From Xestospongia bergquistia (taxonomy: Eukaryota; Porifera; Demospongiae; Haplosclerida; Petrosiidae): a stretch of DNA of 64,000 nucleotides. The notes under the pieces are model-generated. The model did not search any database. It worked only from the letters and a program-made list of their open reading frames with translations, and had not been told where the DNA came from. The stretch spans positions 10,212,601-10,276,600 of the forward strand of contig OZ014413.1 in the NCBI GenBank assembly GCA_963965975.1, read 5' to 3'. Positions 29,418 through 64,000 of the stretch are shown one piece after another. The number at the start of each line of letters is the position of its first letter. The first letter of the stretch is position 1. Both the position numbers and the translations under genes were made by a program.

Positions 29418-31460
29418 TTAATTGTTAATTTCAATTCTGCCGTCTGTAGCCATTTCATCGAGTGCCTTAGCTTGTAGTCTCTGTTCTTGTGAACGTTGAA
29501 GACATTCTTGTTTGACTTGAAACAAACGATAAAGATCTTTCCACATTTTCACTTGTTTCATAGAGAACTCGTGCGTGTCCTTAATATCTTTTTGTTTATC
29601 ACGTAAAGCACGACCACGATTTTCTTGTTCTTGTATTTTTCGTGTCAACACATCACGCATGCTTTTCTTCTTCTCAGCAGGATCTTTAGACACCATTATT
29701 TTCATTTCAGCTTTTACTCGCTGGTCGTGCAAATGTACTGACTCCAGTTGGCAGTTGAGTAAATGATACTGACTTTCTTCAGCCGTGCATTCTTCCCACA
29801 ATGATTTGACTTGCCTTTCTAGTTGGGCACGATTACTTTGCAGTCCAGCAGCTAAACTGTCATAAGTAGATTTCTTTTCTGTGTGGGTATTCTTGATTTC
29901 TTGATGTTGTTGACGGAGAGGTCTCACTTCTCGTATCAGAGGAGCTAATACAGCCTTCTTATCTTCTATAACTCTTTTCAGTTGCTCCACATTACGTGAC
30001 ATATCCTTTAATGTCTCCTCCTTTTTTGAGTCCAGTTCACTCTTGACATTTGATACTTTCTCTAAATTATCCTGAGTGCTTCGAAAACCAGATACGCCTT
30101 GTCTCTTCTCCATAAATTCCAACAATCCTTGAGCATTCTCATCTCGAGACTTGATGATTTCTTCAGTACGAGAGAGGACGCCATACTCAGCTCTGAATGC
30201 TGACAGCTCAGCCTTTTTCATCTTGTAGGTATTACTTATTACACGGAGACGATCTATGTATTTACGAAACTCATCCTCTCGGACTAATTCAATCCCTCCT
30301 AAATCATCAAGCTGTTTCTGTTTCAATTCTAATTCTTTCTCTAGTTCATTCACTTCATCCATTAATGTCTGGACAGTCTCTGCAGCTGTTTGCCGCTTGT
30401 GAGCAATAATAGATGCTTGTTGTCGGAACATTGTCATATTCTCTTGTCCTGTTTCGTCCTCTGCCATTTTCTTCTCCATCAGAATTTGAATCTCTTCATT
30501 CACTTCATCAATTTGTTGTTGAATCACTTCAAGGTCTAACTCACTAACGACAGGCTCTGAAAGGACTTTCTCTAATTCTATACACTGTTTTCGTTTAGTC
30601 TCCACTTTCTTTGGCAGACTCTCTCCAGCTATCATTTTCTGCACTTTGTTCTCCTCTTCAATCTTTGATATAACTACTTCAGCTGTCAGACCTGCTGTAG
30701 TGTTACGTATTTCATCAAGTTCCTGACTCATTCGTTGTAACTTTTGCTGGACAAGAACTAACTGTTCTTTCTGATTTTCTTTTTGTTTCTTCAATTGAAG
30801 TCCTTTGGCTCTCTCCTTACGTAACTTTTGCGCTGAGTCCAACATCTCTTCATGATTGGGGAAGGACTCAACTCGTCTACGTAACCTCTCTAACTGTCTT
30901 TCTAGCTGCTTTTTCTCCTCTTCCATTGACTCAATATCTTGACGCACATCAGCTGTGTTGTACTCAGAAGATCGTTCCATTTCAACTGCTTTATGTATTT
31001 CCTTAAAATGCTCCATCATACTCTGATATGTTTGATAGGTTTCCTCCACTACCTCGTCTTGCAAGAACTCAAGTGGGACATCAATCTTAACTAAATATCG
31101 TGCAAGATAAGCTCTCTTTTTGAGATCCGGGGCACGATTCAGTAGCCAAGCAATTAGGGGATAGATTATAGCTTTCTCACCTTTTATCAAACCTTGACGG
31201 AACATGTTCATACCTTCTCCTGTGTCTGATTTAGGCTTATAGTTGAATAATCTCAGTGTACTTAACAGTCTTAAGGCTGTCTGTTCTGGTGGCTCATCTC
31301 TGAGGTCTACTTTCTGTTCTGGATCGATCTCGGCAATGACATCATTGAGAACTTGCATGAGATTCAATGAGTCCAATGAATCAAAGGTGATTATAGTGTA
31401 GCTTTTATTGTAAGGCTCTTTATTGAGTTTGTCGACTATAAAACGAAGTTGTTCACTCAT
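29418..31460 (-). CDS. IFT81: Intraflagellar transport protein 81, single exon
   Basis: 680 residues in one uninterrupted frame (human about 676). The N-terminal calponin-homology-like domain (MSEQLRFIVDKLNKEPYNKS, FDSLDSLNLMQVLNDVIAEI, FRQGLIKGEKAIIYPLIAWL, KKRAYLARYLVKIDVPLEFL) binds tubulin in the family, together with IFT74. The remainder, from about residue 165, is long coiled coil. IFT-B core component, partner complex to IFT172 nearby. The absence of introns contrasts with all its neighbours. An X-box-like site lies about 80 bp upstream. Confidence 0.95.
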   Translation of the reverse strand: MSEQLRFIVDKLNKEPYNKSYTIITFDSLDSLNLMQVLNDVIAEIDPEQKVDLRDEPPEQTALRLLSTLRLFNYKPKSDTGEGMNMFRQGLIKGEKAIIYPLIAWLLNRAPDLKKRAYLARYLVKIDVPLEFLQDEVVEETYQTYQSMMEHFKEIHKAVEMERSSEYNTADVRQDIESMEEEKKQLERQLERLRRRVESFPNHEEMLDSAQKLRKERAKGLQLKKQKENQKEQLVLVQQKLQRMSQELDEIRNTTAGLTAEVVISKIEEENKVQKMIAGESLPKKVETKRKQCIELEKVLSEPVVSELDLEVIQQQIDEVNEEIQILMEKKMAEDETGQENMTMFRQQASIIAHKRQTAAETVQTLMDEVNELEKELELKQKQLDDLGGIELVREDEFRKYIDRLRVISNTYKMKKAELSAFRAEYGVLSRTEEIIKSRDENAQGLLEFMEKRQGVSGFRSTQDNLEKVSNVKSELDSKKEETLKDMSRNVEQLKRVIEDKKAVLAPLIREVRPLRQQHQEIKNTHTEKKSTYDSLAAGLQSNRAQLERQVKSLWEECTAEESQYHLLNCQLESVHLHDQRVKAEMKIMVSKDPAEKKKSMRDVLTRKIQEQENRGRALRDKQKDIKDTHEFSMKQVKMWKDLYRLFQVKQECLQRSQEQRLQAKALDEMATDGRIEINN

Positions 31461-31969
31461 GGTCTATGATTAGGTTTTTCGTTCGGTTCCACAGCACTTT
31501 CAGGAGGAGGAATGACCTACTGGGGGTGTTTTGTTATTGTTGCTTAGTAACGTCGAGTTATAATAGTCTAATGCGCATGTGCAGAAGACAGACCGCGTGG
31601 TACCCAGCAACCACCTGATCCAGTCTTCTAAACTAAACTTCCTTTCTCTGTTGTTAGACAGCGAACAAGGTATTCAGAGAGCTCTGACCAGGCTGTCCCT
31701 TTACTGCCGCTAACCAATTCTTTAGACTGCAACTGTTTCTTCTCGAAAAGAAGAGTCTTTTTATCACTCCAATCAAACACCATAGTAGGTGACGTCGCAT
31801 TTACGTACCAGTACTAGATTCTTCTTATTGTCGCGTAGGTATTTATCTTTAGGTTTTGGGACCGATAGGTGCTACTACAGGTATCAACTCTATTATTAAG
31901 ACTTAATCACAGATTGATCTAGTAACTTTTAATTCGTACATATACACGCACACAAAGAAGCATTCAAAA
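31461..31969. promoter_or_regulatory. Divergent promoter region of IFT81 and LARP1
   Basis: Contains GTTGCTTAGTAAC (31,539-31,551), a close match to the RFX X-box consensus GTNRCC-N(0-3)-RGYAAC with one mismatch, 79 bp from the IFT81 ATG. It also contains TGCGCATGTGCA (31,572-31,583), one mismatch from the NRF1 consensus. The LARP1 5' untranslated region follows. Confidence 0.6.
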
Positions 31970-47215: not shown

Positions 47216-49534
47216 ATGGCTACATCAAGTCTCTTGCTGATTTTTATTGGCATAACTTGTCTTGGATTTCAAGAAATCTTTGGCAGTAAGATAACATACC
47301 AATTTCTATATATCATAGTTATCTTCTAACAAGATTCATAGCTCATATTTTTAAATAGGATTTTCAGTTTTATTTAATACATATAGACTTCATAGTATCC
47401 AGGTACGGTCTAAATGTTTGATAATATAGGATGTGAGAGCTTAAATGGCTAGCTCCGGGATCCTTCTTTAAAAATGACATAGGACTGGTCATGAGGAGTT
47501 CATGATAAACTTTGATTTATTTCTGTCATCATTGATGGATAAATTTATACTTGTTTTGGTCTCATCCAAAGAGGTCACATAACTCGAATTGACTATTCTG
47601 TCCCAGCTAAAGAATGTGGTGTGAAGCACAAGTGTTGGAACATAATTATAAGGGGTGTCATAAATGAATATTATTAGCACAATTGGTAATGGCTTTTCTT
47701 TATTGTTTGTAATACTAATTGTTGTAGTTGTCTAATGCATCAATTACTATCATTTACAACAAAAAAAGAATAAACAAAGATGTCATTTTTAAATATTAGT
47801 TTTTAGTTTCAAAATGTTAGCTTGTTATAGAATGAAAGCAATATATTTTGAAAGTAAATATAATTAAAGCATAATTATGTAGACATTAAAAATATTTATA
47901 TAGTAAGAAGCTAGATATATTATTTTTATTTAAGCTAAAAGAATAATATTCATTTACAGCACACACCCATATATAATTGCATGCCAACACTTTTTAGGAC
48001 AGAAAATTTAATTGAAGTCACTAGACCTCCACTTTCATGTATCAGTGAAGAGGATTGAGGGTCTAGCTCAATAGACTAATTGAACCTAGAAACTGATTAA
48101 GGAATTTGTCATGAAATCCATAAAAACTTTTCACTATGTAGTTTTGAAGAATGAACTAACCATTTAATTATAAGCCCTAAGGTTCTATATTAAATATCTA
48201 AATCTCCTAGAAGGCTAAGTATATATGTGCATTATACAGAACTAACATTATCATTTAAAATGAAAGGACTATGAGTCTCATTATAAGAATTGTAAATGAT
48301 ATAATAATTAGTTTGACTTTGAGAGATAACTTATATATTATTTCATTGTAATACAATAGATAACAATGGGACAGTTAGCAGAAAAACAGCTCGCTGTGGT
48401 ACCATTAATTATGACCCTGATTTATACATATGTTGCAGTGGAGTTATTAATAGTAAATACAAAAAAACAGCTTGTTGTGGTACCAAGAGTTATAACCCAA
48501 GTTGGAATATGTGTTGTAGTGGAGTTATAAATAGAAAATATAGCAAATCGGAATGCTGTGGTACCCAAAGTTATAGCACAGATTTATTTATTTGTTGCAG
48601 TGGAGTTGTTAGATACAAAGGTAGAAACATAGCTTGTTGTGGTACCTGGAATTATGATCCAAGCACAAGTGTATGCTGCAGGGGAAATATTAATTATGAT
48701 AAAGGGAGTAAAACAGCTTGCTGTGGTATCTATAACTATGACCCAAGCTCAAGTGTGTGTTGCAGTGGAGTTATTAATAGTAAATACAAAAAAACAGCTT
48801 GTTGTTGTACCAAGAGTTATAACCCAGGTTGGAATATGTGTTGTAGTGGAGTTATAAATAGAAAATATAGCAAATCGGAATGCTGTGGTACCCGAAGTTA
48901 TAGCACAGATTTATTTATTTGTTGCAGTGGAGTTGTTAGATACAAAGGCAGAAACATAGCTTGTTGTGGTACCTGGAATTATGATCCAAGCACAAGTGTA
49001 TGCTGCAGGGGAAATATTAATTATGATAAAGGGAGTAAAACAGCTTGCTGTGGTATCTATAACTATGACCCAAGCTCAAGTGTGTGTTGCGGTGGAGTTA
49101 TTAATAGTAAATACAAAAAAACAGCTTGTTGTGGTACCAAGAGTTATAACCCAAGTTGGAATATGTGTTGTAGTGGAGTTATAAATAGAAAATATAGCAA
49201 ATCGGAATGCTGTGGTACCCAAAGTTATAGCACAGATTTATTTATTTGTTGCAGTGGAGTTGTTAGATACAAAGGCAGAAACATAGCTTGTTGTGGTACC
49301 TGGAATTATGATCCAAGCACAAGTGTATGCTGCAGGGGAAATATTAACTATGATAAAGGGAGTAAAACGGCTTGCTGTGGTATCTATATTTATGACCCAA
49401 ACTCTAGCATGTGTTGCAGTGGAGTTATTAATAGTAAATACAAAAAAACAGCTTGTTGTGGTACCAAGAGTTATGATCCAGATTTATACAATTGCTGCAA
49501 TGGACAAATAATAAGTAAGATTTTAAGCTGTTAG
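47216..49534 (+). CDS. Galaxin-like secreted di-cysteine repeat protein (414 aa)
   Basis: Exon 1 (47216-47285) encodes a signal peptide, MATSSLLLIFIGITCLGFQE. Exon 2 (48360-49534) joins in phase 1, and the total, 1,245 nt, is a multiple of three. The mature protein is a chain of 27-28-residue units of the form CCG-x2-x-Y-(D/N)P-x(n)-CC-x-G-x(n)-CCG. Four unit types (KSYNPSWNMCCSGVINRKYS; QSYSTDLFICCSGVVRYKGR; WNYDPSTSVCCRGNINYDKG; YNYDPSSSVCCSGVINSKYK) form a 109-residue super-repeat present three times. Paired cysteines in tandem units are the hallmark of galaxins, secreted proteins of coral skeletal matrix with homologues in other animals. Extracellular, disulphide-rich, possibly structural. 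One unit has CCC in place of CCG (about 48,811). Confidence 0.85.
48509..49490 (+). repeat. Three 327-bp higher-order repeats inside the galaxin-like exon
   Basis: Identical landmarks recur every 327 bp (for example GGTACCTGGAATTATGATCC at 48,640, 48,967 and 49,294). Only a few bases differ between copies, pointing to recent unequal crossover or gene conversion. Each holds four galaxin units. Confidence 0.95.
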
Positions 49535-50349: not shown

Positions 50350-51542
50350 ATGGCTACATCATTCTTCTTGGTCATTTTTATTGGTATAAGCTGTCTTGGA
50401 TTTCAAGAAATCTTTGGGGGTAAGATAATATACATAAATCCAATATCTACTTATTATTGAATGAGTTCATATATCATATACTTTAAATAGGATAGTTAGT
50501 TTTATATAATACATAAAGACCTCCTAACAGGTTTGAATTATTGAATGTTTGAAAATATAGAACATGAGAACTTAATCAGTTGTCTCCTTCTTTAAAAATG
50601 ACATAGTGGCAGGTTTATAGAGATCCTACGACAAGCTTTAGTTTACTGGTTCTGTCATTGTTGATGCATGAGTCCATATTAGACTTGGCCCAAGACAGGT
50701 GATTTGAGTTGACCTTTGTGTACATCCCAGCTAAGGAATGTGTTGTGATAAAAATGTGATATGTGATGTGTGGGAGTGTAATTATGAGGGGTGCTATAAA
50801 TGAATATTATTAACACAGTTGGAAATGGCATCTCAAACATTTCTTTGTTTGTTTTAGTTGTCTAATAGATTGTATTATAATCGATAACAACAAGAAATAA
50901 GAAATCAAAATTTCTGTATAATTTTAACTTTTAGTTTCAAATAGTTATCTTGTTACAAAGTGAAAGCAATATCTTTGAAATTAAGTGTGATGCTAAAACT
51001 ATATTACATATTATTATCCCTTTAAATGTCCATATAATATTATATATATATATTTATATATAATATAATATATATATAATTAGATATAATATATTATAAT
51101 TATATATAATATTTATCTATCTTTTGTGTATGTAGCAACTTGTGGAGGTCGTCAATATAATCCTTCCTTTTTTGTGTGCTGTAACAAAACAATTAGATAC
51201 AAAGGGCTCAAAACAGCTTGTTGTGGTAGCGATAACTATAATCCAAAGTTCTATATCTGTTGTAGTGGAGTTATTAAGATCAAAGCTCCCAATAGAAAAT
51301 GCTGTGGTACCAATTATTATAATCCAAAATTTTTTCTGTGTTGCAGTGGAGTTATTAAGATCAAAGCTCCCAATAGAAAATGCTGTGGTACCAATTATTA
51401 TAATCCGCAATTTTTTCTGTGTTGCAGTGGAGTTGCTAGGCTCAGGGGCTTCAAAACGAAATGCTGTGGTACCATGAATTATGACCCACGTTACAACCAG
51501 TGCTGTGATGGAAAAATACAAATCAAGTATATACCTTGTTAA
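50350..51542 (+). CDS. Galaxin-like secreted di-cysteine repeat protein, short paralogue (158 aa)
   Basis: Exon 1 (50350-50419) encodes MATSFFLVIFIGISCLGFQE, nearly the same signal peptide as the upstream paralogue. Exon 2 (51136-51542) joins in phase 1; 477 nt in total. About five units follow: RQYNPSFFVCCNKTIRYKGL, DNYNPKFYICCSGVIKIKAP, NYYNPKFFLCCSGVIKIKAP, NYYNPQFFLCCSGVARLRGF and a terminal MNYDPRYNQCCDGKIQIKY. Two adjacent units are almost identical. Promoter and intron sequences also resemble the 47 kb gene, so the pair is a tandem duplication. The intron ends in a TA-rich tract (51,035-51,120). Confidence 0.85.
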
Positions 51543-51564: not shown

Positions 51565-52625
51565 AACAGAGACATGAGTACATTATGTTTGTTTGTACTT
51601 TTTGATAACAAAACAATTATGGAAATAAAGTTTACAAAGTTTATTACAAAATAGAGCAAGTCTGTTAATAATTGTTGCCTGTATTATTAACCCTCACTGC
51701 AGTAGTTAGAAAATGTATCTGTGTATGTGATACCAGGCAATTCAAAATGATATTAATGTGTTAAAAAATTTATTATAAAGTAAATTTAATTTTGGGTTCA
51801 CAAATATTTTAGATAATTTTAGATAATACCTTTAAATCAAAGGGGTGTGGTGATTTTAAGTGGCTTCTTCAAAGCGATATATACTTCTTACTGACAATAG
51901 CCATAATTGTAAATATGATAATATCTAAATTCTTGATATTGTTTCTCTTGTCCAGTTAATTTCTCTTTGTTCTTTGTTCAGACTCTGTAAAAAGAGCGTC
52001 CTTAGTTTGTAGTCCCTAAATGAATTACAAATATTAATCGATACATCTACATGTAGCCATGGAAACAAAATGGATAAATATGATAGAGAGAATGGACAAA
52101 TATACCAAAGACAAAATGGATGAATCAAAACATTTGGGAGACAAAAGAGTTAAAATATGCAAATGTATGATAGAGTTATCCACTTTACCTCTAGTGGTCC
52201 TTTTTGTACTTGTAAAGAAACTTGATAGAAAAGTTACAATTTTTATGTAGATTAATGTCTTCTATTCTCCATGATGTCTTGACAAAACAAAGATAATGTA
52301 TAATACAACTTTCTGGTTCGTAAAACTTATGACCCATCAAAGTTGTAAAATTATTAATTGTACAAATGTAGTAATTATTAATGCAATTTGCACCCACATG
52401 AATAATTAAAGTCAGTACATCATGACAGTATAGGAAGTGATGTCACTACTTACCCATCTCTAGCTCCTGACTGTTCTAATCTGCTGATAGCTTCCTCTCT
52501 AGGTATAGATCCATGATACCAAGGATACTGAGAAAGGGGGTCTACGAGTGGAACTTCATTTTCCTCGACTGGAGGAACCACAGGAGGCGTGGGTGGGTTG
52601 TTCATATGATGATTGTTGTTGGGGA
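51565..52625. repeat. 1.06-kb direct repeat, copy 1
   Basis: Matches 62,932-64,000 almost base for base, from AACAGAGACATGAGTAC-like sequence through the SH2-encoding exon. Between 51,543 and 52,453 I see no gene; a small conserved frame near 52,059-52,250 is weak. Confidence 0.9.
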
Positions 52626-52785
52626 GGTGGTTTAGGCGCAGGCTTAGGAGAAGGCTTGGGACCTGGTTTTTGCACTGGTTTGGGTGCTGGCTTTGGTGGA
52701 ACATGAGGTGATGGTGTTTCCTTATCATCATGAACATTTTCCTGTTCTTGAACAACTTGTTTGAACATCATTCCTTGAGCCTCCC
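52454..52785 (-). pseudogene. SH2-domain protein exon with internal frameshift
   Basis: Minus-strand exon bounded by TGTACAG and GG/GTAAGT. It starts EAQGMMFKQVVQEQENVHDD, runs into a Pro/Lys repeat (PPKPAPKPVQKPGPKPSPKP), and ends in the first third of an SH2 domain, YPWYHGSIPREEAISRLEQ then SGARDG. The Pro-rich part and the SH2 part are in different frames; the shift falls at about 52,560-52,620. Neither a second SH2 exon nor flanking exons were recognised, so this is probably a duplicated gene fragment, or a live gene with a sequence error. Confidence 0.6.
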
Positions 52786-53049
52786 CTGTACATAATATAT
52801 GTATATATTATTGTACACAACATATATATATATATATATATATATTGTACACAATATATAATAAACATTGCTATTACTATGTTTATATATAGCATATATA
52901 GATAATGTAAAGATTTTGTTTCAAATTCAAATTTTTATTATTAAATTATTCAAACCCACACATAACAAAATCATTATAATTTAAAAGAGCAAAATTTTAA
53001 CAAAAATTTTAGTACAAAAAATCCACTGCAAAAATTAGATATTACAAAA

Positions 53050-56000
53050 TTAAAACTGATAAACTTTTCGATCAGCTAAACTTGTTACAAAAATATTACC
53101 ATCCTTATCAATACACACACCAGCACTATAATGTAAATTACCTACACTATGAATTAGTTCACCATCAGGACTAAAGATCTTGAGTTGACCACCATCTTTG
53201 TATTCACTTACAAAACTATAGCCTTCCTCATCTATTGCTATACCCCACGGATCTGTTAACTGACCTCTACCATACTCTCTAAGATATTCTGCAGACTGAG
53301 AATAAACTGCAACATAGCCATTATAAGCTGTTCCATGTATATTACCACTGGGATCTACAGCAATACCTCCAATACTGGTCCAACAATGTATAGTCTTCAA
53401 CTTGGTCTCATCTGAGTCGAAAATATGGATGCAATTTCGATCAGCAACGTAAATCTTGCCTTCTTCATCTACTGTGACACCTTTAGGTTGCTCAAAATGT
53501 CCAAATTGTTTTATTACTTGTCCTTGCCCAGCTTTAATGATTCGTTTACTTATGGTCTGTTCACCACTGTTAGCAATGTATATGACATTTTCTTTACATG
53601 CTATACCCCAGTTGTGCTGTTTAAAAGGAAAATTGACGGGAGCAATATTTCTGGTGCCATTCCAAAATCTATACACTTGATTACTACATGTGACGTACAT
53701 TGTTCCATTAGATAAAGCACATATATCATGTGGTTCTGACAGAAAGTTGTAATCATTAATAGATTCTCGGAGTTGACGATAATCACGATATGGTTTAGCA
53801 CACAATGTAAATGGACTATTTTTGATGTGGTCATTATCAATAGTTACATGAAGCTCATACATACCAGAAGAGGGTGGAATAAAATACAAGTCATATTGGC
53901 CAGCACCCTTGTCCAGTACTGTTCCATTGATTATCTGACCTCTCTTATCTTTGTCTAGTAATGTCACCTTGATCTTCTCTCTCTTCACATTACAATGACC
54001 ACCCATCTCATTTCTTGTTTCTAGAACAACAGTACATTTCTTATTAGCTATAGCTCGAGATATCTGTGTGCCAATGATGACGCTAGAAGATGGATGGACA
54101 GATTTTATCTCTCCCAACTCAGATATAGGGGTTGTTAAGTCTATAGAAAACTCAATTGTATTGGTACTCTCACTGAGAGACTGAGTAATCTTGGGATCAT
54201 AGTAGTTGAGTTTTCTACTGATGTCAGTTTTGAGTGTATCAAAGACTGATGCTATTTCAGCTGATGTATAAGTTAGTATTGTTGACTCAATTTTTTTAAT
54301 TAATGAACTCAATTTCTCTTCAACTCTTATTATTTTTTCTCTCTTCATTTTTAGTTTAGTTTGTTTGATAGACGATACCTTGTGTAAATCTTGAAGAAGT
54401 TTCTCCTTACGTTTTCTAAGAGTAGCATGAAGATCTTCAAAAATTGATTCAATAGCTTCTTCAACACATTGTGTATTCTCTTTCAATTGAAGCTGAGCAG
54501 CAGCATTCTTTGTTTTAGAGAACTGTAGCTCTGATATAGAAGTAGTTAGTGGTAACAGATATTGTTGTAGTTCTTGTTTGTTACTGTCAGCTATCTGATC
54601 AAGGTCAATACAAGTATGACCAATATGATGACCAGTCAGAACACACAATCGACAGGTAATTGTATGACATGCTTGACAGTACAGTTCTAGTTCTTCTTTA
54701 GGATGATGAGGACAGAGTGATGGTTTGGCTTTAGCTAGGAGGGAAGATTCAGTAAGAATGTTTAGTTGAATTAACTGGTGCTGAAGAAGTTTACGTTTCT
54801 TTTTGTGAGCCTCTTCACAATCATGACAGATAAATTCCTTACAATCAATACAAAAGGCTACTGCTGGTGGATCAGAGACACATTCATCACACACAATATT
54901 TGAAGATCTAACCTTAGCAATAATGGTCGCAGCCTCTATTTCATGCACTAGTCTAAGGTTATATGGTAGGTCATTGACTCCCGAGCTGGTACGAAGAAAT
55001 GTTGGCTCAAAACAGGTAGGACATATGATAATAGTATTGGACGAGCTGACAAGATCAGTTAAACATGTCTTACAGAAGGAATGAAGACAGGATAGGAGAC
55101 GAGGGTCATTATAGGGGTGTGGTTGTTTATGAGAACATAAGTAGGAAGTAGTAATGCTTGTAGAGTTTGGTTCAACAGTAGTATTATAGGAGTGGAATGG
55201 TTTATGAGTATGAAGAGGGGTGTGTAGGGGAGGATCACAAGAGTTAATACTAGAGTAATGTGGTTGCTTATGAAAGCATTTAGTAGCAGAATGTGGTTGT
55301 TTTTGTAAGCAGGAGATTGTAGTGTTTGGAGGATCACAAGAGTCAGGTTCAATGGTAATCTTAGAGGATTGTGGTTGTTTATGTAGATGAGAGGTGCCGA
55401 TAATGTATGGAAAATTAGATGAGTCAGATTTAGGCATTGTATTTCTAGAAAGGATTATGCAGGATCCTTTTTGGATGTTACAATTATAGAGAATTAATCC
55501 ATTTTCTAGCAATTTACCAGCAAAGAAAAGATGCTGTTGGTTGAGGGGGATACCTTCTTTCTGTTGAATAAATGCTTTTAAAGAATTAATAGTATCTAGA
55601 GGCTTAACGTCAAGAGAGATGGTTTTGCCAGTGATGGTTTCAATGAAGATCTGTAGCATACTGGGTAAAACAAGCTGAATAGTGGATTCTTGATGGATCA
55701 TATAATCAGAGAGAGTGTGGCCATCTTCCAACAATTTGCCGGCAAAGATGAGATGCTGTTGGTCAAGGGGGACACCTTTTTTGTCTTGGATTTTAGCTTT
55801 GACATTCTCAATAGTGTCTGAAGGCTTAACTTCAAGAGAAATTGTTTTGTCAGTGAGGGTCTCAATAAAGATTGACATATTGGATGATACAAGATGAATG
55901 GTATCTCTTGTTTTGACACCATATTCATCAAGGGTAGCTTGATCTTCCATGTGTTTCCCAGAGGTGGCACAGACATAATGTTGGTCTGAAGGGATACCTC

Positions 56001-57009
56001 TTTTGTCCTGGATCATAGCTTTAATCTCCTTAATTGTATAAAAGGGCTCAGTGTCAAGAGTAATAACCTCACCGGTAAGAGTTTTTACAAAGATGTGATA
56101 AGGTCTACTTTGGAAAACAAGCTCAAGAGTTGATTCTTTCTTAATGTGGTAATCAGAAAGAGTGCGCTTGTGACTCCTGCGTTCCAATTGTCTACCATTA
56201 TAAAAGAGTTGCTGGCAGTCAGGTTTGATACCAAATTTATCAAAGATTTTAAGCTTTACTGTCTTAATGGTATCTGATTGTTCAACCACAAGAAGATATA
56301 AAGGGAAGGCATCTCTCTTAATATAAATATACATATCTGGTAAACCAAAGTGAAGTGTGGAATTATTTTGGATGTTGTAGTTAGAGAGAGTAAGTCGACA
56401 ATGCAATGGTTTCCGGGCAAAGATGAGGCATTGGTGATCAGAAGAACCAGTTTCTTTGCCCATGATCTTAGCTTTGACATATTCAATGGTATCTGAAGGG
56501 TCTACAGAAAGTGTAAGAGTTTTGCCATTACCAGTGAAGGTCTTGACAAAAATCTGCATACTAGTATTTGAACACAGATAAAGGATGGATTTTTTTTGGA
56601 TGTTGTAATCAGAGAGAGTATATCCATCTTCCAACTGTTTGCCAGCAAAAAAGAGGCATTGACGGTCAAGTGAAACATCTTTGTCCTGGACTTTATATTT
56701 AACATTTTCAATAGTATCAGAGGGTTCGGCTTCAAGAATGATGGTTTTACCAGTGAGGGTCTTGACAAAGATCTGCATACCTGCTCTCAGACGTAAAACA
56801 AGATGAAGCGTGGATTCTTTCTGGATGTTATAATCTGAAAGAGTATGTCTATCTTCTAACAGTTTGTCAGCAGAAATGAGACATTGTTGGTCACGAGGGA
56901 TACCTTCTTTGTCCTGGATCTTAGCTTTAACACTTTCAATAGTATCAGAGGGCTCAACCTCAAGAGTGATAGTTTTACCAGTGAAGGTTCTCACAAGAAT
57001 CTGAAACAT
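53050..57009 (-). CDS. Poly-ubiquitin-like / TRIM-NHL fusion protein, single exon (1,319 aa)
   Basis: One open frame. Residues 1-523: seven ubiquitin-like repeats (starts at about 1, 78, 151, 227, 303, 378, 451), diverged but with the ubiquitin fold signature (for example [29 protein letters not shown]); junctions lack the Gly-Gly needed for cleavage (RLRAG-M). Residues 524-635: low complexity with repeated KQPH. Residues 636-668: RING remnant ([16 protein letters not shown] ... CPTC) whose first Cys pair is missing. Residues 706-745 and 766-805: two B-boxes ([40 protein letters not shown]). Residues 806-965: coiled coil. About 1000-1096: filamin-type repeat ([10 protein letters not shown]). 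About 1110-1319: NHL repeats ([20 protein letters not shown]). The TRIM part resembles TRIM2/3/71. A link to ubiquitin signalling is likely; ligase activity is doubtful. Confidence 0.88.
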
Positions 57010-57720
57010 ATTTAGACTTAAATTATGTAGAGCAAATTAAAACGAAGCGTAATTTATAGCTAGATGTTACAATCTAAAAGAGTACCTTCATCATTCGTCA
57101 ATTGCTTGCCAGCAAAACGAGCTATTGTTTTATTTTCGTATTGAAATCTGGGATACGAGTGCACGTGGCAGGCACGCAACAGTGATGTAATAGCGATTTT
57201 AAGCGCCCACATAATTGTTGCACACTCTTTTTATAATGTGCTTTCATAGTCGTATTTGAAAGTAATGGATTACGGAGCGTTACATAACAGTTGTACGATG
57301 ACAAACAACGACTGTGATTGCTCACTCTATTGCGGTTCACTCTTGTTATATCACTTAATTAAAGTAAATGTGTAACACACTAAGCCAACACAATCATACT
57401 ATCTCATTCACTGCTAACTGAAACGATGAAATGTATATCTTGCTTTAAGTTCTAGAGCCCCAAAATATAAGTGCTTCAGCATAGAGCTTTCCCTTTGAAG
57501 ACTGACTTCAAAGAAGTTTGGTTAAAGCAATGTAGTTTATTTAACTGTCTTTAATCACTGGACTTAACTACTGGAATGACTTTTTGATCAAAATTGTATA
57601 ATATCTGTCTCCTCCAATACATTACCCACCTAATTAAAATTGAATTGCTGATGACAATTCAAACAATTCTTCTTTGGTTGTCAAAATGTAAAATGTTCAT
57701 TTGCTTTGAGAGTGTGATAA
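57010..57720. repeat. 5' flank of the fusion gene, copy 1, with ubiquitin relic
   Basis: Closely matches 58,430-59,150. On the minus strand 57,060-57,125 reads ARFAGKQLTNDEGTLLDCNI before a stop, a decayed piece of a further ubiquitin repeat. No intact gene. Confidence 0.85.
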
Positions 57721-57769
57721 ATTTTCTAAGGCTACTGGGAAGTAGAATTGGTTTATATCTATTGCTCAT

Positions 57770-57880
57770 TTCTTGCAAGGTTTTTATTTTTATTTTTCAA
57801 ACTACTGGGAAGAAATAACTGGTCCATAATTTGATAAGTTGTATACAATATATGCAATTAGTGTCACAAACATAAAACAA
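57770..57880. repeat. Left arm of an inverted repeat
   Basis: CTACTGGGAAGAAATAACTG and ATTTGATAAGTTGTATACAA occur inverted at 62,620-62,705. Confidence 0.85.
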
Positions 57881-57952
57881 ACAAAAAAAATTCATACAGA
57901 CAGTGCTGACAGTCTTGAGAGCACCATTCAGAAGGGATTTTTATTTAAAGAT

Positions 57953-58429
57953 TTATTTAAAGATCTGCATACCTGCTCTCAGACGTAAAACAAGATGAAG
58001 CGTGGATTCTTTCTGGATGTTATAATCTGAAAGAGTATGTCTATCTTCTAACTGCTTGCCAGCAAAAATGAGACATTGCTGGTCTTGAGGAGCACCTTCT
58101 TTTTCTTGTATCATAGCTTTTACTCTCTCAATAATATCAGAGGGCTCGACTTGAAGAGTTATAATTTTACCAATGAAGGTCTTGACAAAGATCTGCATAG
58201 CATGTCTTTGATGTAAAACAAGATGAAGGGTTGATTCGGTTTGGATGTTGTAGTCAAAGAGTGTATGTCCATCTTCTAACTGTTTGTCAGCAGAAATGAG
58301 ACATTGTTGGTCACGAGGGATACCTTCTTTGTCCTGGATCTTAGCTTTAACACTTTCAATAGTATCAGAGGGCTCAACCTCAAGAGTGATAGTTTTACCA
58401 GTGAAGGTTCTCACAAGAATCTGAAACAT
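57953..58429 (-). CDS. Two-repeat ubiquitin-like protein (158 aa), truncated paralogue
   Basis: Two ubiquitin-like repeats, then MQIF, K and a stop. Repeat 1 is identical to repeat 1 of the fusion protein over its first 49 residues. The end of repeat 2 ([26 protein letters not shown]) matches the end of the fusion protein's repeat 1. No Gly-Gly terminus. The 5' flank is shared with the fusion gene. It may be an expressed short gene or the stub left by a partial duplication. Confidence 0.65.
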
Positions 58430-59240
58430 ATTTAGACTTAAATTATGCAGAGCAAGTTAAATCGAAGCGTAACTTATAGCTAGATGTTACAATCTAAAAG
58501 AGTACCTTCATCATTCGTCAATTGCTTGCCAGCAAAACGAGCTATTGTTTATTTTCGTATATTGAAATCTGAATCTGCGAGTGCACGTGGCAGGCACGCA
58601 ACAGTGATGTAACAGCGATTTTAAGCGCCCACATAATTGCTGCACACTCTTTTTATTATGTGCTTTCATAGTCGTATTTGGGTTACGGAGCGTTACATAA
58701 CAGTTGTACGATGACAAACAACGACTGTGAATGCTCACTCTATTGCGGTTCACTCTTGTTATATCATTTAATTAAAGTAAATGTGTAACACACTAAGCCA
58801 ACACAATCATACTATCTCATTCACTGCTAACTGAAACGATGAAATGTATATCTTGCTTTAAGTTCTAGAGCCCCAAAATATAAGTGCTTCAGCAGAGAGC
58901 TTTCCCTTTTGAAGACTGACTTCAAAGAAGTTTGCTTAAAGCAATGTAGTTTATTTAACTGTCTTTAATCACTGGACTTAACAACTACTGGAATGACTTT
59001 TTGATCAAAATTGTATAATATCTGTCTCCTCCAATACATTACCCACCTAATTAAAATTGAATTGCTGATGACAATTCAAACAATTCTTTGGTTGTCAAAA
59101 TGTAAAATTTTCATTTGCTTTGAGAGTGTAATAAATTTTCTAAAGCAATATACTATATCACTGTGAAAGTTGATCGGTTGATTTAACCAATCCATTGTTA
59201 GTTTGGACGTCAAATAGTACATAATGAGACATTGAGAAGT
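58430..59240. repeat. 5' flank of the ubiquitin-like genes, copy 2
   Basis: Near-identical to 57,010-57,720, including the ubiquitin relic at 58,490-58,545. Its distal part (about 58,850-59,240) recurs inverted at 61,290-61,650. Confidence 0.85.
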
Positions 59241-60364
59241 ATAGCTCGGTTTTAATTACTATACTACAGACATTACTGATAGTAATAGCGTAGGGAGAAG
59301 TAGACAACACATTTTCCTATGAGAGAAAGCAACAGATTGTCTTCCATTCCTTGAAATTGTTATATACTAAGGTGTTAAGTTACTAAGTGATATTGGTATA
59401 TCCTAGAAATGTAGATTGCATACTTGTTAAAATGAGTTACTTAAATTTCTTTTCATAGCAACATTACCAAATACTTCAATACAATAATCTCAAGATATCT
59501 AGGAGGACTTGACTACATTGAGGTCAATACGTTTTTGATTCCTGGTGTATAGATAACAGACATACATGTTATTGCCATACATTGCTGAAAGAGATTCTCC
59601 GACATATTTATTTGTGGAAGGCAATGTCATCACTTTAAGAGTTGCTTCTTTGTGATAGTTAAAGAAGAATGTACATTAAACTTAGTAGAAGCATCCTTCC
59701 AGTTGTGGTAACCTTTTGAAATGAATGCCATATCAAGATTAGGAGACCACTGAAGTTTTTTTCTGAATAAGCATGAGCACAAGTATAGCACAACACAACA
59801 TCTTCATCTTCAACATAATGTACCATTTACTAAACCATGAAACTTGGAAGCTTCTCCTACAAACCACTTTTTTCCCTTTTTTGGAAATGGAAAAGTAAGA
59901 GGTTGGTGTGGTTGGTTTGGCAAAGATCTACCACTGACTATTACCAGCGACTGCCATTGCATGCATGTGGCTTAGATTCAATGAAGTGTGAAGAAAGGGA
60001 AGAGCTAGAGTAGTTAAATAATTAGTATTCATTATTAATAGTTTATGAATGTTAATAACTATGAATATTAATAAATTAACATTAGTAAAAAGTGTAGCGG
60101 CCATGGCTGCTACTCGGTCGCTACAGCTCTTACGCCACTGTTAATAAATTACAACATTGTCATGGTAATGGTGCCTTATAAATTTCAGCCAAATTTAAAT
60201 TGCCACTGACTTTTAATTTTGGCTTTTAAGATCGATCCAACAAATTTCCAACTATGTGGTATAATTGAGATTAATAATTATAATATTAATAACTTTAATG
60301 TTTGTATTTGATACAATATAATCAGTTTGATATGAAACAATTAAAGGATGAACAATCAAAATAT
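59241..60364. other. Intergenic region without recognised genes
   Basis: AT-rich. Contains a short GC-richer patch (GTGTAGCGGCCATGGCTGCT, about 60,092). I see no coding frame with family features. Confidence 0.4.
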
Positions 60365-60814
60365 TTAGTGTGGCTGTCTTTTAGAGGCACTTATAATGCT
60401 ATTCTTGAAAAATTCTTCAGGATCAATTGTTTTCATGATTTCTACATTTCGTTTTGCAAAGTTAGGGTCCATTGTATTTGGAATACTTTCTTCTGCACAC
60501 CAAGTACGCACATTTGTGTAGAGGATATCCAATGGGATGGGAGGTGTTATAATGGTTTCTTCTGTGTCTGGATGGCCAAAGTATTCAATTTGAACTGTTC
60601 CATCTTCATTATCATGTTGGGTTATTTTCCAATTTTCAGTAGGAATGACAATACCCCTAGTTGAGAAGAATTCCTGCCACTTGTTGTGGAAAACAAAAAG
60701 AGACTGGAAGAAATCGACACGAGAGTCCCATCCATCTTGTTTTGTAAAGATGAAGTGGTCCCATTTAATGTAGTCATTGGTTCGAATGTAGTTAGGCAAG
60801 GTAGAGCGAGCCAT
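60365..60814 (-). CDS. Unrecognised 149-residue protein
   Basis: Single frame starting MARSTLPNYIRTNDYIKWDH, rich in Trp, Phe, Asp and Glu (KWQEFFSTRGIVIPTENWKI; EYFGHPDTEETIITPPIPLD), ending DPEEFFKNSIISASKRQPH. The composition is far from AT-rich random translation and looks like a folded cytosolic domain. A GC-richer stretch upstream (60,815-60,970) with CACGTG-like and CCGG sites may be the promoter. I do not recognise the family. Confidence 0.6.
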   Translation of the reverse strand: MARSTLPNYIRTNDYIKWDHFIFTKQDGWDSRVDFFQSLFVFHNKWQEFFSTRGIVIPTENWKITQHDNEDGTVQIEYFGHPDTEETIITPPIPLDILYTNVRTWCAEESIPNTMDPNFAKRNVEIMKTIDPEEFFKNSIISASKRQPH

Positions 60815-61289
60815 TTTGAAAGGTCAAAAATATAGATTTCCGGACACTCTTCACGTGTCCCGGTCCCTTCTATTTCGTGGGCTAAAAATTTGTGATTAGG
60901 CTACAGTTTAATTATTAGTGAGTAGTCCCTCCCTTCTGAGGAAGGGGCTGGCTACGTCGATGCAGGACAATACATCTTTACAATAAGCATTCATAAACTC
61001 TCGGATACCAATGAACCTGGAATATTGAAGCTAATTTCAGGAAGGATCCATGGGGCATAACTGGAGACGAAGAATACTATAGTTTACTAAGTAGTAAGTA
61101 TAAAGTTGGGAGTCAACACAATATGAATATATTTAGTGCTAGGTTGTAGAGTATAATTTCACATTAAAGTATTCTGTTTATATTGGGACTTTAGACACAG
61201 CAATGTTTGCTAAATACATACAATATTATCATTATCTATAAAAATTGATTGTGTTTACTAAATTGATTGTTTACTAATTCCCAATGTCT
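60815..61289. other. Upstream region of the 149-aa gene
   Basis: The first 150 bp are GC-richer (TCTTCACGTGTCCCGGTCCC at about 60,847; GCTGGCTACGTCGATGC at about 60,947), consistent with a promoter. The rest is AT-rich with nothing recognised. Confidence 0.4.
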
Positions 61290-61650
61290 CATTATGTATT
61301 ATTTGCAACCAAAACGTCCAAACTAACAATGGATTGGTTAAATCATCCAATCAACTTTCACAGCAATATAGTATATTGCCTTACAAAATTAATCTTAAAG
61401 CATATGAAAAAATCAAAGAAGAGTTGTTTGAATTGACATCAACAATTCAATTTTAATTGGGTGGGTAATACAGACAATTATGCAATTTTTTTCAAGATTA
61501 AAAAGTCACTCCAATAGTTCAGTCCAGTGATAAACTGCATTGTTTAAGCAAATTTTTTTGAAGTAAGTCTTCATGACAAATAGAAAGCTCTCTGAACCAC
61601 TTATACTTTGGGACTCTAAAACTTAAAGCAAGCTATACACTTCAACAATT
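61290..61650. repeat. Inverted copy of the ubiquitin-like gene 5' flank
   Basis: Inverted and diverged match to 58,850-59,240 (ACAATGGATTGGTTAAATCA; TCAATTTTAATTGGGTGGGT; TTTGGGACTCTAAAACTTAA). Non-coding. Confidence 0.75.
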
Positions 61651-61828
61651 CACTTAGTGGTGAAAGACATAGTACTGCTGTGTTGGTTTAGCGTTTTACA
61701 GTTACTATATATATTCATCATGGTTTTGTAATAAGGGAGTGGCAGTTACAACAATTGTGTAGGAATTACAATTGGTGTTACATATGTTATATAACAAGGT
61801 CAAGGTGACTGTCGTGGCAAATTTGTAA

Positions 61829-62147
61829 AATTGGACCTAGGTCCATTTTTTGCAGGCAAAATTTGGACCTAGGTCCAATTTTAACAAAGAACAAAGTTGG
61901 AATAGTTATAGCAATAAATGGTTTCCTTCCAAAATGTGTGGAAAATAATACACTTTAGGTAGAGTCATTTTGTTAAAATTGGGCCATTTTTGTATGAAAA
62001 ATTTGGACCTAGGTCCAAATTTATACAAGTAAAATTTGGACTTATATGGCAAAATTTGTTGCCAGAGATAGGTTCACTTTAGGCAGCAAAATTTGGTCCT
62101 AGGTCAACTTCTGACAGGAAGATTTGGTCCTATATAGGTCCAATTTG
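61829..62147. repeat. Array of GGACCTAGGTCC palindromes
   Basis: The perfect 12-bp palindrome occurs at 61,833-61,844, 61,865-61,876 and 62,005-62,016, usually as TTTGGACCTAGGTCCAA. Related half-sites and expanded forms follow (TTGGTCCTAGGTC at about 62,093; TTTGGTCCTATATAGGTCCAA at about 62,123). No coding content. Confidence 0.9.
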
Positions 62148-62619
62148 ATCTGAATATAATAAGATTTAGCATTTAATCTAAATAAAGACAGTACATGTTA
62201 TGTAGTTATAGGTTATATTATATAGGTAATGTTACAATTAATTAAGAGTTTTTTTACACATTTTCATGATATGTGACACTTATAGTACATGACATTGTAA
62301 TATCATAGTGTTAAGAGATGAAATCTATATTTTTTTCTTATTATCTTTTTTCAAACTTGACCAGCAAAAAATGAACAGCATGTAAATATGTAAATATAAG
62401 GTACATCCATAATAGACAGGAATAACACTGTATCAACTCAATAGTTTCATAACTATCATTATCATATAGTCTCCATAAACTTTTACATCATTTTTACAAC
62501 TGTTTTCTAGGCTATATTGATTAGCAATTGAATTGGTTTTGACGTTATTGTTGTTTTCTTCTTAGTTGAAAAACTTTTGGTTGTCTCACAATTTTTTTTG
62601 TTAGTTTTATGCTTGTGAC

Positions 62620-62730
62620 ACTAATTGCATATATTGTATACAACTTATCAAATTATGGACCAGTAGTTCTACTGTTATTTCTTCCCAGTAGTTTGAAAAA
62701 TAAAAATAAAAACCTTGCAAGAAATGAGCA
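62620..62730. repeat. Right arm of an inverted repeat
   Basis: Reverse complement of 57,735-57,880 (CTTCCCAGTAGTTTGAAAAA; CCTTGCAAGAAATGAGCAAT). It is followed at 62,740-62,925 by an inverted copy of 46,495-46,690. Confidence 0.85.
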
Positions 62731-62931
62731 ATAAAGGATTTTTAGATAAATATTGTGTAATAGCTTTAATGACTGTGATTCCTGCTTGAAGGTAATTATT
62801 AGCTGTAGATATATCATGAGGTCTTTACAGTATTCACCTTCATGAAGTTAGCTGATAAAGGATATTTTTGTTGACATTATACCATCTTGTTGTAAGTGTC
62901 ATTTGTTTATTTCACATTTCATAAACAGAAA

Positions 62932-64000
62932 CATGAGTACTTTATGTTTGTTTGTACTTTTTGATCACAAAACAATTATTGAAATAAAATTTACAAAGTT
63001 TATTACAAAATAGAGCAAGTCTGTTAATAATTGTTGCCTGTATTATTAACCCTCACTGCAGTAGTTAGAAAATGTATCTGTGTATGTGATACCAGGCAAT
63101 TCAAAATGATATTAATATGTTACAAAGTTTATTATAAAGTAAATTTAATTTTGGGTTCACAAATATTTTAGATAATTTTAGATAATACCTTTAAATCAAA
63201 GGGGTGTGGTGATTTTAAGTGGCTTCTTCAAAGAGATATATACCTCTTACTGACAATAGCCATAATTGTAAATATGATAATATCTAAATTCTTGATATTG
63301 TTTCTCTTGTCCAGTTAATTTCTCTTTGTTCTTTGTTCAGACTCTGTAAAAAGAGCGTCCTTAGTTTGTAGTCCCTGAATGAATTACAAATATTAATTGA
63401 TACATCTACATGTAGCCATGGAAACAAAATGGATAAATATGATAGAGAGAATGGACAAATATACCGAAGACAAAATGGACGAATCAAAACATTTGGGAGA
63501 CAAAAGAGTTAAAATATGCAAATATATGATAGGGTTATCCACTTTACCTCTAGTGGTCCTTTTTGTACTTGTAAAGAAACTTGATAGAAAAAGTTACAAT
63601 TTTTATGTAGATTAATGTCTTCTATTCTCCATGATGTCTTAACAAAACAAAGATAATGTATAATACAACTTTAAAACTTGTGAGCTATCAATGTTGTAAA
63701 ATTATTAATTGTACAAATGTAGTAATTATTAATACAATTTGCACCCACATGAATAATTAAAGTCAGTACATCATGACAGTATAGGAAGTGATGTCACTAC
63801 TTACCCATCTCTAGCTCCTGACTGTTCTAATCTGCTGATAGCTTCCTCTCTAGGTATAGATCCATGATACCAAGGATACTAGGAAAGGGGGTCTAAGAGT
63901 GGAACTTCATTTTCCTCGACTGGAGGAACCACAGGAGGCGTGGGTGGGTTGTTCATATGATGATTGTTGTTGGGGAGGTGGTTTAAGCGCAGGCCTAGGA
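62932..64000. repeat. 1.06-kb direct repeat, copy 2 (runs off window)
   Basis: Direct copy of 51,565-52,625 with sparse substitutions and short indels. Confidence 0.9.
63805..64000 (-). pseudogene. Second SH2 exon copy with nonsense codon
   Basis: Same exon as at 52,454. In the SH2 frame the Gln codon before YPWYHGS is a stop (TAG, 63,879-63,881). The exon continues beyond the window, so its upstream end is not visible. Confidence 0.7.

Follow-up and report, generated by a model that had tools for sequence, protein, structure and literature searches.

Organization of the Fusion Gene

The window analyzed in this work, i.e., a stretch of 64,000 nucleotides from the sponge Xestospongia bergquistia (C3:10212601-10276600 in a genome of 146.46 Mb and 21 contigs), harbors a gene in which an array of ubiquitin-like (Ub-like) repeats precedes a TRIM-NHL protein. 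The open reading frame (ORF) lies on the minus strand, a point left unstated in the initial annotation of this DNA, and spans positions 57036-53050; it comprises 1,319 codons counted from the ATG at 57009. From the N- to the C-terminal, the predicted gene product consists of seven Ub-like repeats, a linker, a RING-like segment, two B-boxes, a coiled coil, a filamin domain, and NHL repeats:

53050-57009, minus strand: copy 1 of the fusion gene, 1,319 codons and a stop (ORF and genome-copy comparison)
56779-57009, minus strand: Ub-like repeat A1, aa 1-77, 83% identity to ubiquitin (Ub), ending in RLRAG; mosaic with a B1 head and a B2 tail (see below)
56560-56778, minus strand: Ub-like repeat A2, aa 78-150, 73% to Ub
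56335-56559, minus strand: Ub-like repeat A3, aa 151-225, 64% to Ub
56101-56334, minus strand: Ub-like repeat A4, aa 226-303, 55% to Ub, the longest branch
55879-56100, minus strand: Ub-like repeat A5, aa 304-377, 51% to Ub
55660-55878, minus strand: Ub-like repeat A6, aa 378-450, 74% to Ub, retaining L8, I44, and V70
55438-55659, minus strand: Ub-like repeat A7, aa 451-524, 56% to Ub, stopping at the fusion point
55435-55437, minus strand: codon of Met525, which is homologous to the start Met in unfused TRIMs
55126-55437, minus strand: linker, aa 525-628, built from degenerate copies of the N-terminus of the TRIM
55006-55137, minus strand: variant RING lacking the canonical first CxxC; C625 and H631 conserved, C641, H643, C646, C649, C663, and C666 present
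54775-54903, minus strand: B-box 1 (Pfam)
54604-54732, minus strand: B-box 2 (Pfam, PDB sequence match)
54145-54603, minus strand: coiled-coil region, partly aligned to TRIM3 (PDB 8amr)
53806-54099, minus strand: filamin domain (Pfam)
53053-53757, minus strand: NHL repeats, aligned to TRIM71, TRIM2/3, and Brat

Probing Pfam with the whole protein retrieved seven ubiquitin stretches (PF00240, E 2.1e-132), zf-B_box (1.2e-9), filamin (1.3e-13), and NHL (1.2e-12), with the RING models falling just under the cut-off. The three repeats least identical to Ub, scanned singly, each matched PF00240 (A4, 3.7e-16; A5, 2.1e-15; A7, 6.2e-19). The ORF, the Pfam matches, and a second copy in the genome confirm that the array and the TRIM-NHL part share a single 1,319-codon frame, as had been read from the letters; the accompanying description as "one exon" holds for the uninterrupted coding frame, and it is to the coding frame only that such a claim would reach.

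None of the seven repeats ends with a di-glycine, the closest being A1, whose RLRAG end carries G75A and keeps G76. This agrees with the previous observation that the repeat junctions lack processing sites. The array has neither the near-identical units (51-83%) nor the di-glycine processing ends of a polyubiquitin. A standalone, divergent seven-repeat Ub-like array is also found at C11:4874083-4875627 (L010); one of its seven repeats ends with GG.

Downstream of the linker, both type 1 and type 2 B-boxes are present with their zinc ligands, as in TRIM (RBCC) proteins; the coiled coil after them is recognized by homology, through a phmmer alignment of aa 760-916 (segment residues 160-316) to TRIM3 8amr, and the filamin domain followed by NHL repeats corresponds to class C-VII. 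The PDB sequence matches of the C-terminal part (best 60 of 71) include TRIM71, TRIM3, TRIM2, and Brat. No RBR model occurs among 25 of the 31 Pfam matches of the whole protein or among the 18 listed when the TRIM part was scanned by itself; with its seven Ub-like domains (Ubls), the protein does not show the RING-IBR-RING arrangement after one Ubl of the Ubl-containing RBR ligases.

Two Copies and a Partial Paralogue

A second full-length copy of the gene lies 11.3 kb away, at C3:10276958-10280914, with an amino acid identity of 97%. The two copies have 1,319 codons each and differ at 63 bases with no indel, and the linker is open in both; their aligned flanks, in turn, are interrupted by 7 gap openings in 1,489 bases and by 4 in 735 (11 over 2,224). 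Wider duplicated blocks are recognizable in the neighborhood, at 52549-57732 (96.9%) and 59581-63768 (98.3%). Because this second copy is full-length, free of indels, and open in the linker, a sequencing artefact is a very unlikely source of the fusion as judged from the two sequences, and a base-call error in the linker, which the initial annotation had named as a possible refutation, was rejected. At the level of the DNA, then, this is a real, duplicated fusion gene, both copies of which keep one open frame.

Further features surround the gene:

57956-58429, minus strand: partial paralogue B, two Ub-like repeats followed by MQIFK and a stop, with no TRIM part
58430-59146, minus strand: 5' flank of B, homologous to 57010-57732
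57010-57732, minus strand: 5' flank common to paralogue B and copy 2, with TATAAA at 57235 and also at 57058 (pattern match, alignment)
52934-52939, minus strand: AATAAA about 110 nt past the stop (pattern match)

The AATAAA and TATAAA are pattern matches only. A decayed Ub-like fragment was read by eye upstream of the fusion start. Paralogue B is a 167-aa open frame sitting between the two fusion copies and preceded by a duplicated 5' flank of its own. The first 148 nt of A1 match B1 without a difference, and from nt 150 onward 94 nt of the fusion match B2 exactly; copy 2 is a mosaic of the same kind, with two mismatches to B1 in nt 1-148 and none to B2 in nt 150-231. These patterns indicate that the locus is recombining, and the simplest reading would be an ancestral array of eight, one unit of which was lost from the fusion. 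A further comparison between A1 and B (0/242 coding versus 33/724 upstream mismatches) was set aside, since the coding stretches had been chosen as identical and the count is biased.

Origin of the Junction

The linker was compared with unfused TRIM relatives. Out of 11 found in the genome at 60% identity or more, 10 distinct ones were used (L003-L008, L015, L016, L017, and the second gene on L014), leaving out C2:5593691; L014 also re-reads L007, which was not counted twice. Seven of these have complete frames; the partial ones number three, with 550, 496, and 503 aa. All ten have a MAT start and EPDSCD, then LCxxxQPHxxxDPxLLSC, and at least two separate DNA matches connect the fusion linker with the TRIM start in each of nine relatives compared. 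The linker is thus homologous to the TRIM N-terminus, and the hypothesis of an intergenic read-through was rejected. Moreover, the sequence before the ATG reads CTAG-TAATACA-ATG in six of the ten relatives (L003-L008); in the other four, CTAG stands 9-14 nt ahead of the ATG. The fusion junction reads CTAG-AAATACA-ATG, with its AG at 55445-55446. Because the junction matches the 5' sequence of the unfused TRIMs, Met525 is, on this alignment, the former TRIM start, and the array ends there.

One unfused relative has RING, B-box, filamin, and NHL in the same order as the fusion, and no Ub-like match (E 1e-4) was retrieved from the flanking DNA fetched around the unfused relatives. In the phylogenetic tree, both fusions sit together on a single long branch (0.53) next to the C10/C2 group, within which the order is mostly poorly resolved; between the fused and the unfused TRIM parts, dS is 0.39-0.48 and dN is 0.22-0.24 (seven relatives). 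Taken together, the alignments show that a diverged polyubiquitin-type array was joined to what looks like an intronless TRIM-NHL gene, right beside the start codon of the latter; the subfamily of this gene has unfused members as well. A derivation of A1-A7, in order, from the C11 array was rejected, as the tree lacks an ordered pairing, though most of its deep forks are open.

Is the junction translated? The linker appears to be in frame by codon choice, at a level reached in 5 of 1,000 shuffles, and its period-3 signal is 5.0 against a shuffle 99th percentile of 3.2; it is stop-free in its frame, yet also in a second frame, being poor in G. No donor pattern among GTAAG, GTGAG, GTATG, GTATA, and GTACG begins inside the linker (55126-55437), so an intron starting there is unlikely, while one beginning in the array would be possible. 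The retention of CTAG, seven nucleotides, and ATG at the junction, as in six of ten unfused relatives, might also suggest two products, the TRIM part still being made from Met525 through a 5' exon of its own, joined by splicing at the AG at 55445, which looks ancestral; translation of the whole long frame would then be occasional or absent. Only its appearance suggests that this AG might be a splice site; paralogue B does show that the 5' flank can precede an array without a TRIM part. However, the linker frame, its codon use, and the lack of indels in both copies fit translation through the junction, and we consider the two-product alternative unlikely.

The RING-like Segment

The RING of the fusion had been described as a remnant, which would imply a by-product of the fusion itself. 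This does not agree with the relatives: the first CxxC is missing in the fusion and in all ten unfused relatives examined, C625 and H631 being present in all 12 rows of the alignment, so that the candidate explanation "the fusion destroyed the RING" was rejected. According to these sequences, the RING of the fusion is a variant of the subfamily and not a casualty of the fusion. An upstream CDPPC, which could serve in place of the first pair, occurs in five of the ten unfused relatives. The two best RING models match the fusion from position 7-8 of 39-40, with scores around the cut-off; the unfused L003 clears the Pfam cut-off for two RING models, and L017 has lost further RING cysteines. The canonical Cys pair was recognized by eye in distant C11 and C1 relatives, the former matching a RING model from position 1.

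Constraint on the Array and Possible Role of the Fusion Protein

From the organization of the gene we infer that one protein is made, from which the array is not detached. The reading that we favor, with a probability of roughly 0.45, is that of a scaffold with a permanently attached multi-Ubl arm. TRIM proteins pair via coiled coils, and each dimer would therefore expose some fourteen Ub-like modules. Assembly of the scaffold and choice of its target would fall to the B-boxes, coiled coil, filamin, and NHL domains; the array would act as a multivalent arm, its docking modules keeping the Ub fold but having drifted toward partners of their own, with at most A1, A5, and A6 still binding ordinary ubiquitin receptors. 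Among the many TRIMs of this genome, the protein would then serve mainly as a scaffold or a decoy, and not as an ordinary ubiquitin ligase.

The array has the beta-grasp core, with a hydrophobic residue at 97 of its 98 core positions; in 2,000 neutral simulations, 87 of the 98 positions at most were hydrophobic, and no run kept all seven repeats open (0/2,000). Consequently, the array was long constrained as a fold. Ub residues are retained at 81/98 core positions and at 185/287 positions of the surface outside the wider I44 face, the latter keeping 24/63 (p 0.0002), or 20/49 (p 0.002) when the tail positions are removed. Three of the four residues of the strict I44 patch are kept in A1, A5, and A6 and none in A7, and L8, I44, and V70 are all present only in A6.

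Substitutions between the two copies were examined in 15 overlapping segments, with no correction. Over the whole gene, there are 21.0 synonymous changes in 897 sites and 42.0 nonsynonymous changes in 3,060 (p 0.048). The signal is visible in the TRIM part (16/472 versus 24/1,601, p 0.013) and in the RING-B-box region (5/128 versus 1/418, p 0.003); the linker has three synonymous and two nonsynonymous changes (p 0.086). Recent purifying selection is, thus, visible in the TRIM part and not in the array.

Several points weigh against the scaffold reading. The array differs between the copies by 2/352 synonymous and 16/1,220 nonsynonymous changes (p 0.39), with no recent purifying signal, and the coiled coil (0 versus 2), filamin (5 versus 10, p 0.36), and NHL (6 versus 11, p 0.23) segments are not significant alone; dN/dS among seven unfused relatives is 0.48-1.15, so that the subfamily evolves fast. 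The open frame is by itself weak evidence, 2.8 stops being expected from 63 random changes (P(0)=0.056). The long-term constraint on the array may pre-date the fusion, and the neutral simulations take their number of changes from the base differences to whichever of 12 canonical repeats is nearest, which may overstate it. As for the interaction surface, the strict four-residue patch (13/28, p 0.067) is not significantly lower than the rest, nor are L8/I44/V70 alone (10/21, p 0.16), and the core and I44-patch positions of ubiquitin are assumed ones. Furthermore, the unfused C11 array (repeats D1-D7) keeps 31/63 residues of the wider face, 25/49 without the tail, and 13/28 of the strict patch, against 206/287 on the other surface and 84/98 in the core; since this unfused array shows the same erosion, the latter is common to such arrays, fused and unfused alike, and not special to the fusion. 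Lastly, AlphaFold single-sequence models were too poor to use (mean pLDDT 51.9 for the array and 37.5 for the TRIM part).

The initial annotation had suggested a built-in ubiquitin-chain mimic. As a general property, this is only partly supported by the retained residues, in that the wider face is eroded and the strict patch is not significantly so; mimicry through A1, A5, and A6 is possible. In the hard-wired form of this idea, the uncleavable array would imitate the self-anchored chain of an activated TRIM and permanently recruit ubiquitin receptors. The engineered Ub G75/76A-TRIM21 and the constructs with up to four linear Ub on the TRIM21 RING (described in the excerpt of PMC7900206) offer a precedent, A1 carries one of the two engineered changes, and K48 and K63 are kept in six and four of the seven repeats, respectively. 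On the other hand, A7 has lost the whole patch, the erosion is shared with D1-D7, and the engineered effect needs a working RING, which is uncertain in the fusion protein. With the wider receptor face eroded and the RING uncertain, we regard hard-wired mimicry as doubtful. Going one step further, the gene might encode a natural, deubiquitinase-resistant "pre-ubiquitylated" TRIM, whose Ub-like chain would permanently replace the N-terminal self-ubiquitylation that other TRIMs would have to earn by clustering, and which would nucleate signaling platforms without ligase activity; this idea is, in our opinion, rather improbable.

The ubiquitin fusion degradation pathway targets proteins with an uncleavable N-terminal ubiquitin fusion, and the array might in principle be a tag that makes the TRIM short-lived. 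Besides the absence of GG ends, K27 and K33 are present in all seven repeats, K29 in five, and K48 in six. Nevertheless, one unit would suffice and seven are unneeded, and K11/K27/K29/K33 are kept at 27/28 positions in the unfused array D versus 24/28 in the fusion, so that their retention may merely reflect folding; this explanation seems to us very improbable.

Finally, the fusion might be a neutral accident carried along by tandem duplication, with the array heading for decay. The 16 nonsynonymous against two synonymous array changes, the truncated duplicate B, and the recombination seen in the mosaic A1 are in agreement with it. Against it stand the long-term constraint on the array core and frame, possibly older than the fusion, the lack of stops and indels in either copy, and the purifying selection on the TRIM part, and we hold an accident of this kind to be improbable. 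The scaffold with a multi-Ubl arm is the reading that we retain.

Of the 16 nonsynonymous differences that separate the two arrays, 8 fall in A3 (56335-56559, aa 151-225), which may hint at gene conversion.

Genomic Context

A census of the genome retrieved 93 PF00240 matches (143/143 candidates scored) and at least 150 B-box matches, the latter a lower bound from 150 of 408 candidates. From a by-eye comparison of the two lists, the B-box one covering 150 of the 408 candidates, both domains co-occur among these matches only in two 1,328-aa frames on C3. The B-box census reveals a very large TRIM-like expansion; many of these frames are single, 700-800 aa long, and in tandem clusters, as expected of intronless TRIM genes. 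Polyubiquitin genes are located at C2:7887582-7889165 (seven units) and C11:4886637-4887764 (five units). Besides the C11 array, a multi-Ubl frame of 708 aa lies at C9:6285374-6287374 (L055), and Pfam scans revealed no TRIM domain in the C11 and C9 multi-Ubl frames. A set of close multi-Ubl frames, including some of 1,067 (read by eye), 967, and 891 aa, occupies C4:1251723-1285624 (L057 in part). A parkin-like frame with a Ubl followed by a Cys-rich, RBR-like region (by eye) occurs at C10:6664449 (L056), in the region that the C10 TRIM cluster covers.

Upstream of the fusion gene, the stretches at about 57371-57679 and 57760-57892 have inverted copies at 61411-61700 (75%) and 62590-62733 (91%), respectively, possibly a mobile element. 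Other genes of the window encode galaxin-repeat proteins (48323-49531 and 51090-51539, plus strand), an IFT81 N-terminal (CH domain) frame (29421-31463, minus strand), and a TPR frame resembling IFT140/IFT172 (18690-19112); a CEP44 match is also present among the window proteins. The IFT81, CEP44, and galaxin-repeat matches are in keeping with animal DNA. No outside relatives were found in the phage, viral-contig, and prokaryote contig collections, where absence says little for an animal gene.

Comparison with Known Systems

The fusion shares with the filamin-bearing TRIM-NHL proteins of class C-VII (TRIM2, TRIM3, and TRIM71) the order of RING-like segment, two B-boxes, coiled coil, filamin, and NHL, but it adds the seven-unit N-terminal array and its RING is devoid of the canonical first Cys pair. 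As in polyubiquitin genes, the units are arranged head to tail with no spacers; unlike in them, they are diverged, without di-glycine, and followed by a large foreign protein. The unfused divergent arrays of C11 and C9 likewise hold several Ub-like units in one frame, but they have no TRIM domain (Pfam), and the C11 repeats do not correspond one to one, in order, to A1-A7.

Parkin and HOIL-1 have one Ubl and are RBR-type ligases, not TRIMs. They and the fusion are alike in being E3-type proteins with a Ub-like domain (HOIL-1/RBCK1; excerpt of PMC3503706), and differ in that a single Ubl with an RBR ligase stands against seven Ubls with a TRIM. Animal TRADD-N proteins include fusions to polyubiquitin and to TRIM ligase domains (excerpt of PMC8195603), so polyubiquitin is already known as a shuffled domain; these are listed as TRADD-N fusions, and the excerpt reports no Ub array and TRIM in one protein.

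The initial annotation knew of no TRIM with an N-terminal poly-Ub-like array, and the titles and abstract openings of the literature matches listed agree, none being on a TRIM with a ubiquitin array; among those same matches, the arrangement is otherwise met only as a laboratory construct. A Ub-TRIM21 chain, 7bbd, is found among the PDB sequence matches, and presumably derives from the study of these constructs. The engineered Ub(1-4)-TRIM21 and Ub G75/76A-TRIM21 resemble the fusion in bearing linear, uncleavable ubiquitin on a TRIM N-terminus, and differ from it as laboratory constructs with true ubiquitin, a working RING, and a PRYSPRY TRIM (PMC7900206, excerpt). According to the same excerpt, TRIM21 is N-terminally mono-ubiquitylated by Ube2W, and only the tetra-Ub TRIM21 RING construct no longer depended on the clustering of substrate; in TRIM5alpha, mapping placed the anchor on lysines and not on the N-terminus (excerpt of PMC4551353). 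If one protein is indeed made, the fusion would show a polyubiquitin gene becoming a permanent protein-interaction arm, and would offer a test case for an attached chain replacing ligase activity in an expanded TRIM repertoire; nature would, in other words, have built a TRIM with an uncleavable linear Ub-like chain at its N-terminus, like the constructs of the TRIM21 study.

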